NCBI GenBank assembly: GCA_026195905.1 | Contig: JAPHRE010000059.1 | Coordinates: 1-53,820 of the forward strand | Reading direction: 5' to 3' | Source: Pseudopelagicola sp. | GTDB lineage: Bacteria; Pseudomonadota; Alphaproteobacteria; Rhodobacterales; Rhodobacteraceae | DNA length: 53,820 nt | Shown: positions 4,680-41,274 of the stretch, in pieces | How positions within the stretch are numbered: position 1 is the stretch's first letter | Layout: every line of letters begins with the position of its first letter | Notes under the pieces: generated by a model | Told to the model about the DNA's origin: nothing | The model's input: only the letters and a program-made list of their open reading frames with translations | The model's database searches: none | Program-made: the position numbers and the translations under genes

Positions 4680-5201
4680 ATGGCCGGTTCCGTCAACAAA
4701 GTTATCCTCGTCGGCAATCTTGGCCGCGACCCGGAGGTCCGCACCTTTCAGAACGGCGGCAAAGTGTGCAACCTGCGCATTGCGACCTCTGAAACGTGGA
4801 AAGACAAAAACACCGGCGAACGCCGCGAACGGACCGAATGGCACACCGTCGCGATCTTCTCCGAGGGTCTGGTCCGGGTCTGCGAACAATACCTGCGCAA
4901 AGGCTCCAAGGTCTATCTTGAGGGCAAATTGCAAACCCGCAAATGGCAGGACCAATCCGGCAACGACCGCTATTCAACCGAAGTCGTCCTGCAAGGCTTT
5001 GACGGCACGTTGATTATGCTCGACGGTCGCAGCGGCGGCGGCGGCGGTGGCGGCGACTACGGCGGGGGTCAAGGCGGCGGTTACGGCGGCGGCGATCAGG
5101 GCGGCTACGGCGGCGGCTATGATAGCGGCCCCGGCGGCGGCGCAAATCAGGGCGGCGGCGGGTCGTCCTCGCGCGATCTCGACGACGAAATCCCATTCTG
5201 A
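4680..5201 (+). CDS. ssb: Single-stranded DNA-binding protein
   Basis: A 173-residue SSB that coats single-stranded DNA in replication, recombination and repair. The OB fold occupies roughly residues 1-112 ([44 protein letters not shown]). A glycine-rich linker with Gly-Gly-Asp/Tyr runs follows from about 118 to 163, and the chain ends in the acidic partner-binding tip DLDDEIPF. The linker is unusually Gly-pure and is encoded by GGC-rich sequence, which produces long spurious frames on both strands. The GGGGGG upstream of the ATG acts as the ribosome-binding site. Confidence 0.97.
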
Positions 5202-5275
5202 TCTCGCCTCACTGGTAAACCCGCTCTGGCCGCGATACCGTCACACCAAAGACGTTGGCAGCGAAAGGTTTACTC

Positions 5276-6358
5276 ATGGCTTGGTCCTTCTCTATAGGCC
5301 GTCTGTTCGGCTCTGACATCCGCGTGCATGCAACCTTTTTCCTGTTGCTGCTGTGGATCGGGCTGATGGCCTACGCCGAGGGCGGCACGTCTGCCGCCCT
5401 CGCCAGCGTGCTTTTTGTCGTGGCGCTCTTTGCCTGCGTTGTGGCGCATGAGTTCGGCCATGCCCTGACCGCGCGGCGCTACGGCATCCGCACCCCTGAC
5501 ATTACCCTCTTGCCCATCGGCGGCATGGCCCGGCTTGAAAAGATGCCGGACCAACCGGCACAGGAAATCCTCGTCGCTCTCGCTGGTCCGGCGGTCAATG
5601 TCGTGATCTGGGCCGTGCTGACGCTTCTGCTTGGCGCTCAAACCGGCGGTGCCTTGGTCAACCTGACCGATTTGACCCCGACCACTTTCCTGGCCCAGCT
5701 TGCGGCAGTGAACCTCTTTCTGGCAGTGTTCAACCTCCTGCCCGCCTTTCCAATGGACGGTGGCCGGGTGCTGCGCGCACTGTTGCAAACCCGGATGTCG
5801 CGCCCGCGCGCCACCGAAACCGCCGCCCATGCCGGACAGATCGTCGCCTTCCTGATGGCCTTCGCCGCGCTCGCCACCGGCAACATGATCCTGCTGCTCG
5901 TGGCGTTTTTCGTCTTTGTCGCGGGCAACGCCGAGAGCAAAGACGTCTCCATGCGCGCTCTGACCCGCCGCATGCAAGCGCGCGACGCGATGATTACCGC
6001 CTATGAAAGCCTCGCGCCCACCGACCCGTTGCAAACCGCCGCCACAACCCTCATCCGCACAACCCAGCATGAGTTCCCCGTGCTGGCTCCCGACGGGACG
6101 CTGCTCGGCTTCCTGACCCGTAGCGCGCTCTTTGCCGCGATGGCCGAGGACGCCGGAGCCATGCGCCATGTCGATACCCTTATGGAGCGCGACATACCGC
6201 GCGTGCGCCTTGAGACCAGCCTCGAAGACGTCACCGACGCCCTCTACAAAGGCGCGCCCGCCGTGGTTGTCTGTTCGCCCGAGGACAAGATGTTGGGCTA
6301 TATCACCCGCGAAAACCTTGGTGAATTGATGGTGCTACAAACCCGCCAAAGCGCCTGA
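5276..6358 (+). CDS. Site-2 protease-like M50 metalloprotease with two CBS domains
   Basis: A 360-residue polytopic membrane protein. The zinc-binding HEFGH is at residues 58-62 within a transmembrane helix, and the second metal motif NLLPAFPMDG is at 153-162. Four to six hydrophobic segments span residues 20-220. Two CBS domains follow in the cytoplasm (about 232-290 and 295-355), suggesting control by an adenine nucleotide. This architecture is the bacterial class of intramembrane proteases that cleave anti-sigma factors or similar substrates; the substrate here is unknown. The ATG at 5276 is favoured over the upstream in-frame start at 5255, because family members begin close to MAWSFSIGRLFG. 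Confidence 0.9.
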   Translation: MAWSFSIGRLFGSDIRVHATFFLLLLWIGLMAYAEGGTSAALASVLFVVALFACVVAHEFGHALTARRYGIRTPDITLLPIGGMARLEKMPDQPAQEILVALAGPAVNVVIWAVLTLLLGAQTGGALVNLTDLTPTTFLAQLAAVNLFLAVFNLLPAFPMDGGRVLRALLQTRMSRPRATETAAHAGQIVAFLMAFAALATGNMILLLVAFFVFVAGNAESKDVSMRALTRRMQARDAMITAYESLAPTDPLQTAATTLIRTTQHEFPVLAPDGTLLGFLTRSALFAAMAEDAGAMRHVDTLMERDIPRVRLETSLEDVTDALYKGAPAVVVCSPEDKMLGYITRENLGELMVLQTRQSA

Positions 6359-38393: not shown

Positions 38394-39329
38394 TTATCGC
38401 ACACTCTTCATGCGCCGCATGAACACAACGAGCCGCGGCCAGGTCGGCATTGGCACGCCGCCGGGTTGCATCTGATCGTAAACAAGGAACACCCCCGACG
38501 CGATCACGATCGACACCCCAAGATAGATATGCCCGCCCGGCACCTCGCCAAAAATCACCGCCCCAAGGATCACCATCCAGACAAACTGCAAGTTCATCAA
38601 CGGCATGACCGCATAGGCTGCCAAAAGCCGCAGCGCCACGACCGAGACCCATCGCGCCGCAAACAGGGCCGCCGCATACGCCCCCACCCACACAAGATCG
38701 CCAACCGGCATGGGGCGATACACAAACGGCAACGCCAGCACCATCGTGAGGAAAAGGGCAAGGTTGGGATAAAACACCTGTGCGAGGGAATTGCTCTCAT
38801 GCTGGCCGATAAACCGCGCCAGCACCAGCGACAGCGCCCCACAAAGACAGGCCACAAGCGCCACGAGATGCCCAACCGTGACCGCCGCCAAACCACCCGG
38901 AAACAGGCACAACACCCCCACAAACCCCGCCGCCAGTGCCGCCCACGCCAGCGGGCGCACATGTTCGCCAAGGATTGCCCCCGAGAGCATCCCGGAAAAC
39001 ACCGGCATCAAGCCAATGAACACAAACACCTCGGCAAAGGGCAAAAGCCGAAACGCCTGAAAGAACGCCACTGACCCCACAACCGTTAGCGCCGCCCGCA
39101 CCGCCATAGCGCGCGGACAGGATGTGACCAAGGATTGCCCCGCGCCCCGCTTGATCCGCGCCCCGCCCCACGACAGGGCGACAACAACCGCCCCCGAAAA
39201 GGCAAACAACTGCGGCGCGCTATAGCCCTTGGCGATGAATTTCGTGATCGCATCCGCCGACGAAATCAGCAGCGTATAAAGAACAACAAGCCCGGTTCCG
39301 GCAAGGGCTGTCCGGTTGATCCCGCTCAT
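38394..39329 (-). CDS. EamA/DMT-family permease coupled to the unknown 357-aa gene
   Basis: A 311-residue ten-helix transporter of the drug/metabolite family. The first repeat shows VVLYTLLISSADAITKFIAKGY and PFAEVFVFIGLMPVFSGMLSGAILGE; the second has YAVMPLMNLQFVWMVILGAVIFGE and HIYLGVSIVIASGVFLVY. Its ATG overlaps the stop of the upstream gene (ATGA, 39326-39329), so its synthesis is tied to that protein. In this position it is the natural candidate to export something made by the repeat-protein locus, but the family moves many small molecules and the link is inference. Confidence 0.85.
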   Translation of the reverse strand: MSGINRTALAGTGLVVLYTLLISSADAITKFIAKGYSAPQLFAFSGAVVVALSWGGARIKRGAGQSLVTSCPRAMAVRAALTVVGSVAFFQAFRLLPFAEVFVFIGLMPVFSGMLSGAILGEHVRPLAWAALAAGFVGVLCLFPGGLAAVTVGHLVALVACLCGALSLVLARFIGQHESNSLAQVFYPNLALFLTMVLALPFVYRPMPVGDLVWVGAYAAALFAARWVSVVALRLLAAYAVMPLMNLQFVWMVILGAVIFGEVPGGHIYLGVSIVIASGVFLVYDQMQPGGVPMPTWPRLVVFMRRMKSVR

Positions 39330-40399
39330 CCGACGACCCGCGCCCCGCCTGCCCGCGCGAACCCCTCAAAGAACATATCGAAATTGTCGCTGGAATGTTC
39401 CGCCCGCGATAAAACCGCCTGCGCATCCTCGGATAGATGATTGAGTACGACCGGGCGCATTGCGCTCCAATCGCCGCTGCGATCTTCGAGGCGATACATA
39501 CATTCCGACAATTCCCGCAGCGGCCCCAACATCCCCGAAGGGCGCTGAAACACCATACCATCCCCCATCATCGCCTTGGAAAATCCCCGCTCTCCCGTGC
39601 AGAGCATGAGCCAGTTACATACCAGATATTCATGGTAATCATCCTGCACCGATGCCTCTTCCGGGCTTAGAACGGCAAAAAGATGCGTATGGCGCACAAG
39701 CCATGTTTCCCACGCTTCGGGAGCCTCAAACCCCGCAAAGCGAAGCGCGATACAGATTTCCGCAAGCAGGTCCGCATTCTGTTCAAGAAACGCCAAAAGC
39801 CCCGCAAATTCGAGAGAAAGCCGCGCGCCCTGCCCCAATTGCGGGTCGATGCGCCCATATTCCGAAAGGTAAAATACGGCATGGGTCAATTCATACGCCG
39901 CTTTCTTGTTCGGCATGGCAAACCCCGCCGAGCGCGCCATAAATCCCCGCACCCGATCCTCAAGGCCGCAATCCTCGGCCAGCGGATCAATCCCGCGCCG
40001 GATCATCAGGCGCCGCGCTTCCAATCGTTGCAAATCCGATAGCTCGGCCCGCGCAAACCCCTGCTGCGCGACCCACGCCACAAGCCCCTCGCCCTTGCCG
40101 CCCTCCATGCCAAGATCCTCAAGATCAAGACAGATCGACAGAAGAAAGCGGTAATATTGCGGAAAGAACCGAAGCCGCCTTTCGACGCCCGCGTAAAACC
40201 CGCGATAGGCCTCAAGATCATCCGCCGCAATCCCGCGTCCCGTGCATTCAAGAATGTTAAGAAGCTCCGCATTCTCCTTGAGCCAAAAGACATCATCGCC
40301 AAACCGGCGATGGCTGGCGAAACTCTGCATAAGGGCCGCGTGTCGCTGTGTCTCGGGCTGAACCCGTGCCGCGGGGGAAAAGGCTAGAACATTGGTCAT
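39326..40399 (-). CDS. Helical protein of unknown function, partner of the FTSGL-repeat protein
   Basis: A 357-residue, probably cytoplasmic or peripheral protein with almost entirely helical character and no transmembrane segment or signal peptide. Regions of note are WLKENAELLNILECTGRG, RRLRFFPQYYRFLLSICLDLEDLG, GFAMPNKKAAYELTHAVFYLSEYGR and a C-terminal Ser/Ala-rich stretch. About eight cysteines are scattered without CxxC pairs. I recognise no catalytic motif: no P-loop, ATP-grasp, radical-SAM, YcaO or lanthionine-synthetase signatures. It starts 91 bp after the repeat-protein stop, beyond a terminator, and is coupled by ATGA to the EamA gene. The ATG at 40399 is favoured over a GTG at 40438. 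Confidence 0.8.
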   Translation of the reverse strand: MTNVLAFSPAARVQPETQRHAALMQSFASHRRFGDDVFWLKENAELLNILECTGRGIAADDLEAYRGFYAGVERRLRFFPQYYRFLLSICLDLEDLGMEGGKGEGLVAWVAQQGFARAELSDLQRLEARRLMIRRGIDPLAEDCGLEDRVRGFMARSAGFAMPNKKAAYELTHAVFYLSEYGRIDPQLGQGARLSLEFAGLLAFLEQNADLLAEICIALRFAGFEAPEAWETWLVRHTHLFAVLSPEEASVQDDYHEYLVCNWLMLCTGERGFSKAMMGDGMVFQRPSGMLGPLRELSECMYRLEDRSGDWSAMRPVVLNHLSEDAQAVLSRAEHSSDNFDMFFEGFARAGGARVVG

Positions 40400-40443: not shown

Positions 40444-40479
40444 AAAAAACGACCGGGGCACATGGATCATGCCCCGGTC
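40444..40479 (-). terminator. Intrinsic terminator/attenuator after the repeat-protein gene
   Basis: On the minus strand the 10-bp perfect stem GACCGGGGCA / TGCCCCGGTC (9-base loop) is followed after one base by TTTTTT. It starts 11 bp past the stop of the repeat-protein gene and ends 45 bp before the next gene. It should make most transcripts monocistronic, leaving low readthrough into the two downstream genes. Confidence 0.93.
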
Positions 40480-40489
40480 AAAGCCTGCG

Positions 40490-40846
40490 TCAGAGGCCCG
40501 AGGTAAAGAGCTCCGCCCCTTCGCCAGTTTCGGCACGTGCATCGCCCTGTGGCGCAAGGCCCGAGGTAAACATCTGCACCAGACCCGAGGTAAACATCTC
40601 GGCCCCATCCCCCGCCATCCGATCATGCGCCGCCTGCGGCGACAGACCCGACGTGAACATCTGCACAAGGCCCGAGGTGAACATCGCGGCACCGTCCCCC
40701 GCCATAGCATCAGACGCAAACTCTGACGCAAGGCCCGAGGTGAACATCTCTGTTGCACCGCCATCGTGCATGTTCTCCTCACAGGCCACGAGCGCGGCTT
40801 GGTTAAAGGTTTCGTTAACCATTTTGACAGTTTGTTGAGCGAGCAT
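40490..40846 (-). CDS. FTSGL-repeat protein, putative multi-core precursor or self-assembling peptide
   Basis: A 118-residue protein of low complexity. Residues 1-33 are non-repetitive, with the only cysteine at 22 (LAQQTVKMVNETFNQAALVAC). The rest consists of 29-residue units: MFTSGL, a 15-residue spacer ending in a GDGA-type motif, MFTSGL and Val-Gln. Six hexapeptides lie at 34-39, 55-60, 63-68, 84-89, 92-97 and 113-118 (the last is LFTSGL), and the protein ends on the last one. An excellent ribosome-binding site (TGGAGGGA) is nine bases from the ATG at 40846; the longer frame to 40879 begins with TTG and is disfavoured. No signal peptide or membrane segment. Function unknown; a processed peptide precursor, an abundant storage/surface protein or a polymer-binding protein are all possible. 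Confidence 0.85.
   Translation of the reverse strand: MLAQQTVKMVNETFNQAALVACEENMHDGGATEMFTSGLASEFASDAMAGDGAAMFTSGLVQMFTSGLSPQAAHDRMAGDGAEMFTSGLVQMFTSGLAPQGDARAETGEGAELFTSGL
40493..40747 (-). repeat. 2.9 tandem copies of an 87-bp coding repeat with six 18-bp sub-repeats
   Basis: The hexapeptide codons occupy 40730-40747, 40667-40684, 40643-40660, 40580-40597, 40556-40573 and 40493-40510. Every other copy is exactly 87 bp apart, while neighbours alternate at 63 and 24 bp. Synonymous codons vary between copies (TTT/TTC, ACC/ACG, GGC/GGT, CTT/CTG/CTC), so the amino-acid pattern is conserved beyond the DNA identity. Confidence 0.92.
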
Positions 40847-41274
40847 TTTTTGGATCCCTCCAGTTGAAGTTTTGAGCAAGGCAACGCTTGCACGTTAAAC
40901 GGGTTTCTCCAAACATATTTTCCCTCTATGCGGTTTCTCTCCAAAAACGCTCACGCTCTGGCTGTGTGTCAAGCTGCTGTTTTTGTTTGATTTTTAGGAG
41001 AACCCACAACGCCAAATTTAGCGCCAAATTTTCGACGCATCTTTGCCACTTTCTCGCCACATTCTGACAATCTCCCCCTATGGCTGTGCGAAAATTGCAT
41101 CCCTCTCAGCCCGAATCGTCGCCCCTTTGGGCAACGCGGTTCCCCGAGATCCACGCCCATCACCGCCCCATCACCACCCCGCCACGCAACGCCGGCCGCA
41201 CCGCTTGCATGCCGCCCGCGCATGGCGGATACAGGACCCACAGGACACGGGTATCCGCAGGGGGGAAACCGACC
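40847..41274. other. 428-bp divergent intergenic region between the repeat-protein gene and xth
   Basis: It must hold the repeat-protein promoter (minus) and the xth promoter (plus). On the minus strand TTGACA occurs at 40971-40966, but the hexamer 17-18 bases downstream is T-rich (GTTTTT) and a poor -10, so that promoter is only a candidate. An imperfect dyad AACG-cttgca-CGTT lies at 40883-40896, 37 bp upstream of the repeat-protein ATG. GGGGGG before the xth ATG is the ribosome-binding site. Lower GC than the surroundings (40920-41090). Nothing else is recognised. Confidence 0.6.

Follow-up and report, generated by a model that had tools for sequence, protein, structure and literature searches.

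What does a short repeat protein encoded in a Pseudopelagicola sp. genome (Rhodobacteraceae) give rise to, and which gene acts on it? We analysed positions 1 to 53,820 of contig JAPHRE010000059.1 (assembly GCA_026195905.1), and this whole stretch of 53,820 nucleotides is called the window. The open reading frame (ORF) in question lies at 40490..40846 on the minus strand and carries six copies of a pentapeptide core, and the next gene directly downstream encodes a protein of the family DUF6902. Judged from sequence, the pair is probably a minimal multi-core cassette resembling those of ribosomally synthesised and post-translationally modified peptides (RiPPs), with DUF6902 as the maturase and perhaps as an epimerase. 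The two genes look like a hitherto undescribed system for short peptides that vary in sequence from one species to the next. The repeat ORF encodes what defines a multi-core RiPP precursor, a ribosomal polypeptide with a head and a repeated core, and we filed the locus as a multi-core RiPP-like system and not as a proven RiPP. The main features are listed here.

40490..40846, minus strand: repeat ORF, multi-core precursor-like, 118 amino acids, six FTSGL cores, the C-terminus being a core
40748..40846, minus strand: non-repeat head of 33 residues, possible leader, extent taken from the translation
40493..40747, minus strand: core array, MFTSGL five times and LFTSGL once, preceded by lead-ins (GDGA/GEGA among them) and set apart by variable spacers
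39326..40399, minus strand: DUF6902 protein (Pfam PF21843), 357 amino acids, proposed maturase (candidate peptide epimerase)

An initial annotation had described a 118-residue frame with a strong ribosome-binding site, a 33-residue head and an end on the core, and all of this was borne out from the sequence. The frame runs from an ATG at 40846, with GGAGGG 10 nt 5' of it, to a stop at 40490. This ATG was favoured over a TTG at 40879 because near relatives begin at the homologous methionine of MLAQ, MLAE or MLAK. Heads were compared over 73 M-beginning arrays, the window among them, with start sites picked by script; position 3 was Ala in 60/73 and position 6 was Lys in 59/73, and the window has Ala3 and Thr6. 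The six hexapeptides reported earlier are present as five MFTSGL and a final LFTSGL, i.e. the core is prefixed by Met in five copies and by Leu in the last, and the Val-Gln joint also described occurs twice. The proposed layout of 29-residue units with two hexapeptides each held for the middle of the array and not for the rest of it (Tandem Repeats Finder gave an 87-nt period, 2.3 copies and 76% matches). The same program marked further short tandem arrays in the window at 2172-2212 and 5036-5156.

The protein is predicted to be disordered (mean predicted local distance difference test, pLDDT, 46.3; predicted template modelling score, pTM, 0.14). No known family could be assigned to it, as matches fell far under cut-off (TssD, 12.2 bits; NCBIfam NF009351, 20.8 against 183). 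Ten relatives of the precursor gave three matches over a curated cut-off, each with 0 matched stretches: L003 to Herpes_UL35 (39.6, cut-off 25), and L031 to both zf-FCS (25.4, cut-off 22.4) and the NCBIfam FlmA family RiPP (40.8, cut-off 30). These were treated as score sums over repeats.

Linkage of the repeat ORF to DUF6902

A genome scan gave 336 DUF6902 relatives, and the best 80 were taken as named loci, which biases this set to close relatives. By title they come from roseobacter-type genera of this family, Shimia, Marivita and Roseovarius among them, and from metagenome-assembled genomes labelled Rhodobacteraceae, Rhodobacterales, Paracoccaceae or Alphaproteobacteria. The initial annotation had proposed looking for the frame in relatives. 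A repeat ORF was found upstream of DUF6902 in 80/80 named loci, 77 by script and three by reading translations (cores FVSGL, IMSAS and FPSGS), and the cores differ between genomes. The gap between the two genes was mostly 50-75 bp, with outliers up to 342. Since a similar ORF adjoins DUF6902 at all of these loci and tracks it family-wide, the repeat ORF is not a chance frame.

Across the window's family DUF6902 was present in 108/394 genomes. A profile built on two repeat units matched in 91 of these 108 and in 0 of the 286 genomes lacking DUF6902 (Fisher p 1.9e-72, relatedness ignored), the 91 matches being presence per genome and not adjacency locus by locus. The profile missed 17 genomes, of which 16 were inspected and the remaining one was a contig end; in 14/16 a repeat ORF lay upstream of DUF6902. 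Some carried usual cores, namely FSSGS (L200, L202), FTTSM (L199) and FTTSC (L203, L204), and others carried diverged cores, namely YIAGL (L198), MMCCS, MMSCS, LSPSC, SSTC, STSSF, FISGS, MPTSN and AQSFS. Four of these arrays had just two clear core copies. At L197 and L207 the DUF6902 gene had no visible upstream repeat ORF, and there the precursor may have been lost or may be located elsewhere. The DUF6902 relatives L209 and L174 have arrays with the core STSSF, in which the aromatic residue stands last instead of first.

Within the window's genus DUF6902 was found in 15/25 genomes, and precursor matches (E <=2e-12) were found in the same 15; the best precursor match in the 10 genomes lacking DUF6902 was 0.00355. 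The site between the exonuclease III and Fe-S_biosyn genes was empty in 7 of these 10 and held EamA minus the pair in 3. As both genes are present in the same 15 genomes and both are missing at the site in the 10, precursor and DUF6902 appear to be gained and lost jointly.

Core sequence, array structure and selection

Cores were counted in 81 arrays (the 80 loci and the window) comprising 649 units, using a core pattern that restricts the letters at positions 2-5 and dropping units with three or more mismatches. The arrays of L104 and L140 are truncated at contig ends and that of L136 contains Ns. Arrays held 3 to 20 units (median 8). The array's majority core was found in 621/649 units, and the 28 exceptions differed at the first residue only, mostly F to Y. 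There were 19 kinds of majority core over the 81 arrays, with F-x-S-x-x in most genomes counted. The third position was S, T or C in 649/649 units, as the search pattern required. The protein ended exactly on a core in 70/81 arrays, and cores were spaced by 20 or 21 residues in 502/568 cases and by 8 in 52/568.

Uniformity was also seen with an anchor that left positions 2-5 free, which gave core identities of 0.96-0.97 within arrays against 0.44-0.81 between them, with flanks varying within arrays. By this check 14/654 units differed, and by reading these were 10 false anchors, 3 copies of a second core in L086 and 1 FISGL in L126. Mixed-core arrays were L086, L126, L031, L204 and L210. The L086 array (5216-5929) has two core types, FTSGS and FTTSA, and the L031 array mixes FCSWS and FSSLS. 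In two cases repeat-unit matches sat at the ends of two contigs from a single genome (G250:C4 with G250:C13, and likewise G027:C6 with G027:C20). This pattern points to assembly breaks within the arrays, so that draft genomes may understate array size.

The synonymous codon variation between copies noted in the initial annotation is real, with five versions among the six core DNA strings of the window. At least two core DNA versions were present in 81/81 arrays, which rules out chance or a plain DNA repeat, and just 18/568 adjacent 33-nt units were identical in DNA. More than one synonymous codon was used in 334/405 core columns, and both TCN and AGY serine codons occurred in 43/156 serine core columns. 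The within-array ratio of nonsynonymous to synonymous divergence (dN/dS) was 0.044 for the core, 0.28 for the lead-in, 0.20 just after the core and 0.64 for the spacer. These values point to strong purifying selection on the core and agree with the earlier suggestion that selection holds the peptide.

Closely related arrays differ in all copies at once. L085 has FSSGS in all 6 units and L089 has FTSGS in all 7, with DUF6902 proteins 95.5% identical, near-identical heads and several near-identical spacers. The window core FTSGL compares with FVSGL in the close relative L063 (one copy YVSGL), where Val replaces Thr in all five copies and is encoded by differing codons. On a quick DUF6902 tree (81 proteins) the core must change at least 27 times. 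Near-uniform arrays with whole-array core switches would be expected were the core itself the product and mixtures of products disfavoured. Taken with the family-wide arrays, the core purifying selection and the partner linkage, cores that are uniform within arrays and different between them give good support to the multi-core precursor first suggested for this frame.

DUF6902, its neighbourhood and candidate chemistry

The initial annotation recognised no modifying enzyme and had missed the adjacent DUF6902 gene, a relative of DUF6895. The partner protein matched Pfam PF21843 (DUF6902) with 537.4 bits (E 1.8e-161, cut-off 27, profile 1-351/351) and PF21836 (DUF6895) with 84.8 bits (E 8.7e-24, cut-off 23.8, profile 15-238/289). 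Its structural model is confidently helical (pLDDT 91.5) with a possible alpha/alpha toroid fold, and the top structural matches were protein prenyltransferase beta subunits. Foldseek returned no match in the structural libraries at E <=0.001, a sequence search of solved structures gave 0 matches up to E 10, and plasmid records were without a match to DUF6902.

DUF6895 offers a lead on function, as one member is named a lasso-peptide epimerase in the title of Shi et al. (ACS Catal. 2026, 10.1021/acscatal.5c08590), as it appears in the reference list of PMC13352647. DUF6895 matches were found in 13/398 genomes of the phylum, 11 of them over cut-off, and several are DUF6902 genes of the window's family. 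The wider region was inspected for 5 of the 13. Four DUF6895-type genes inspected (L170-L172 from other families, L173 from the window's family) all adjoin short or repetitive small ORFs. Those listed include two tandem short peptides ending ..GRWYVYVGTEE and ..GPWFVLAGDQT, a protein containing GPWYIYK and GPWFVLK, a protein containing DWTFVSPNYVYKGS and DWTFISHNYVYKGS, and a short ORF containing GWWAVVSDHCVVAGG. The region L170:5490-9741 has a DUF6895 gene and two tandem short precursor-like ORFs with an O-methyltransferase and a C70/C39-like protease nearby, and looks like another undescribed RiPP-type cluster.

When eight DUF6902 and DUF6895-type proteins were aligned, Y169, H173, A203, D210 and E214 were invariant in 8/8 and Y255-H256 was present in 7/8, the eighth being a short frame; identity to the distant DUF6895-type proteins was 16-17%. 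H173, D210, E214 and H256 are candidate catalytic residues. The DUF6895 title, the small-ORF neighbours and the conserved residues together suggest that DUF6902 is a peptide-modifying enzyme. Its likeliest chemistry would be C-alpha epimerisation, because a published title ascribes lasso-peptide epimerase activity to a related DUF6895 protein.

Two further features adjoin the pair.

40450..40480, minus strand: strong hairpin followed by T6, terminator-like, in the gap separating the precursor stop from DUF6902; may act as an attenuator (z -3.44)
38394..39329, minus strand: EamA-family transporter (Pfam EamA, 3.6e-12), candidate exporter, optional part

A conserved attenuator was rejected, with a strict hairpin and T run in just 2/79 other loci, a frequency similar to that in control stretches (0 to 2 of 74-80). 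The EamA gene overlaps the DUF6902 stop by 4 bases and lies directly downstream of DUF6902 in 60/77 loci. This count, along with EamA occurring apart from the pair in 3/10 genomes of the genus, rules it out as an obligate exporter. One Marivita locus has a Fe-S_biosyn-like gene (so called because it resembles that of the window) straight 3' of DUF6902, and the smallest form is therefore two genes. Upstream of the repeat ORF an exonuclease III gene is divergent. The 11 neighbouring window proteins scanned were exonuclease III, DUF6902, EamA, Fe-S_biosyn, HD phosphohydrolase, arginyl-tRNA synthetase, MarC, FAD-binding, DksA, AAA and SPOR, and among them there were no lasso cyclase or protease genes and no ATP-grasp ligase.

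Competing explanations and significance

In the explanation we favour, the disordered repeat protein would be the precursor, in which 3 to 20 pentapeptide cores (six here) come after a short head, and DUF6902 would be a maturase acting on every core. C-alpha epimerisation would put a D-residue into each core, a general protease would release the cores, and EamA would perhaps export them where present. Processing would yield a single short peptide in many copies, specific to the strain. The data show the array and how it is conserved, that it is linked to and co-occurs with DUF6902, and that DUF6902 is related to DUF6895; the modification and its type, the cleavage, the export and the biological role are what we infer. 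A broader proposal, which we put forward tentatively and on balance doubt, is that of a new Rhodobacteraceae-wide RiPP class in which near-uniform hypervariable pentapeptide arrays are turned into D-residue pentapeptides by a stand-alone DUF6902 epimerase and serve as strain-specific signals or weapons. Whole-array core replacement would then reflect selection for a uniform product.

The same precursor could instead receive another modification from DUF6902, e.g. cyclisation or dehydration on a Ser/Thr/Cys-rich core. Ser, Thr or Cys is abundant in most cores (the third position being fixed as S/T/C by the search pattern), and the possibly toroid-like fold has protein prenyltransferase beta subunits as its best structural matches. 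The diverged core YIAGL (L198) contains none of the three residues, however, and the sole function named for the superfamily, in a title, is that of an epimerase, and we consider this alternative unlikely. Less likely still, the repeat protein would stay unmodified and serve as a scaffold or as a string of short binding motifs, with DUF6902 as the binding partner. Folded proteins can be bound by arrays of motifs, and cleavage and modification of the repeat protein are themselves inferred steps, but whole-array core changes with a similar partner (pairs 95.5% and about 78% identical) would be odd for a fixed binding motif, and the core is the exact C-terminus in 70/81 arrays. A structural repeat that folds, for instance as a beta-solenoid or an adhesin, is very improbable. 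The regular 20- or 21-residue spacing fits it, whereas the low-confidence model, the spacing of 8 in 52/568 cases, and the window protein and ten relatives giving no above-cut-off Pfam or NCBIfam match with a matched stretch all speak against it. The initial annotation had also hinted at an ester-linked peptide. Thr/Ser in the cores and Asp/Glu in the repeats would suit a graspetide, but the hint gained no support, as none of the 11 window proteins scanned is an ATP-grasp ligase and one core, in L198, lacks both Thr and Ser; we regard this as barely credible.

Set beside known systems, the cassette shares single features with each. The window DUF6902 scores well over the DUF6895 cut-off, Y169, H173, D210 and E214 are common to both, and the DUF6895-type genes inspected also adjoin small precursor-like ORFs; the differences are that the window neighbours scanned are without lasso genes and that the partner here is a multi-core array. 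The lasso epimerase MslH epimerises a residue of a ribosomal peptide (PMC10406935), which is the role proposed for DUF6902. MslH probably belongs to a different enzyme family. Multi-core microviridins, described in PMC5934393 as arising from one polypeptide, likewise have one precursor with several cores and a maturation gene beside it; here there is no adjoining ATP-grasp gene, the arrays have 3 to 20 near-uniform cores and the partner is DUF6902. Fungal Kex2-processed repeat proteins (PMC7329392 and PMC9769878) carry many peptide cores per protein that vary by species, whereas the window system is bacterial and tied to DUF6902. The literature searched yielded no mention of DUF6902 and mentions DUF6895 in one paper. 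None of the matches listed for Rhodobacteraceae or multi-core RiPP literature concerns this system, which is no proof of absence.

For DUF6902 the analysis supplies a specific candidate substrate, a genetic context and a link to DUF6895. Uniform cores per array and different cores in close relatives make single-product selection directly testable, and the two-gene form could easily be rebuilt in a laboratory host. The bacteria of this family are mostly marine. With DUF6902 in 108/394 sampled family genomes, the cassette would be a peptide system widespread among them.
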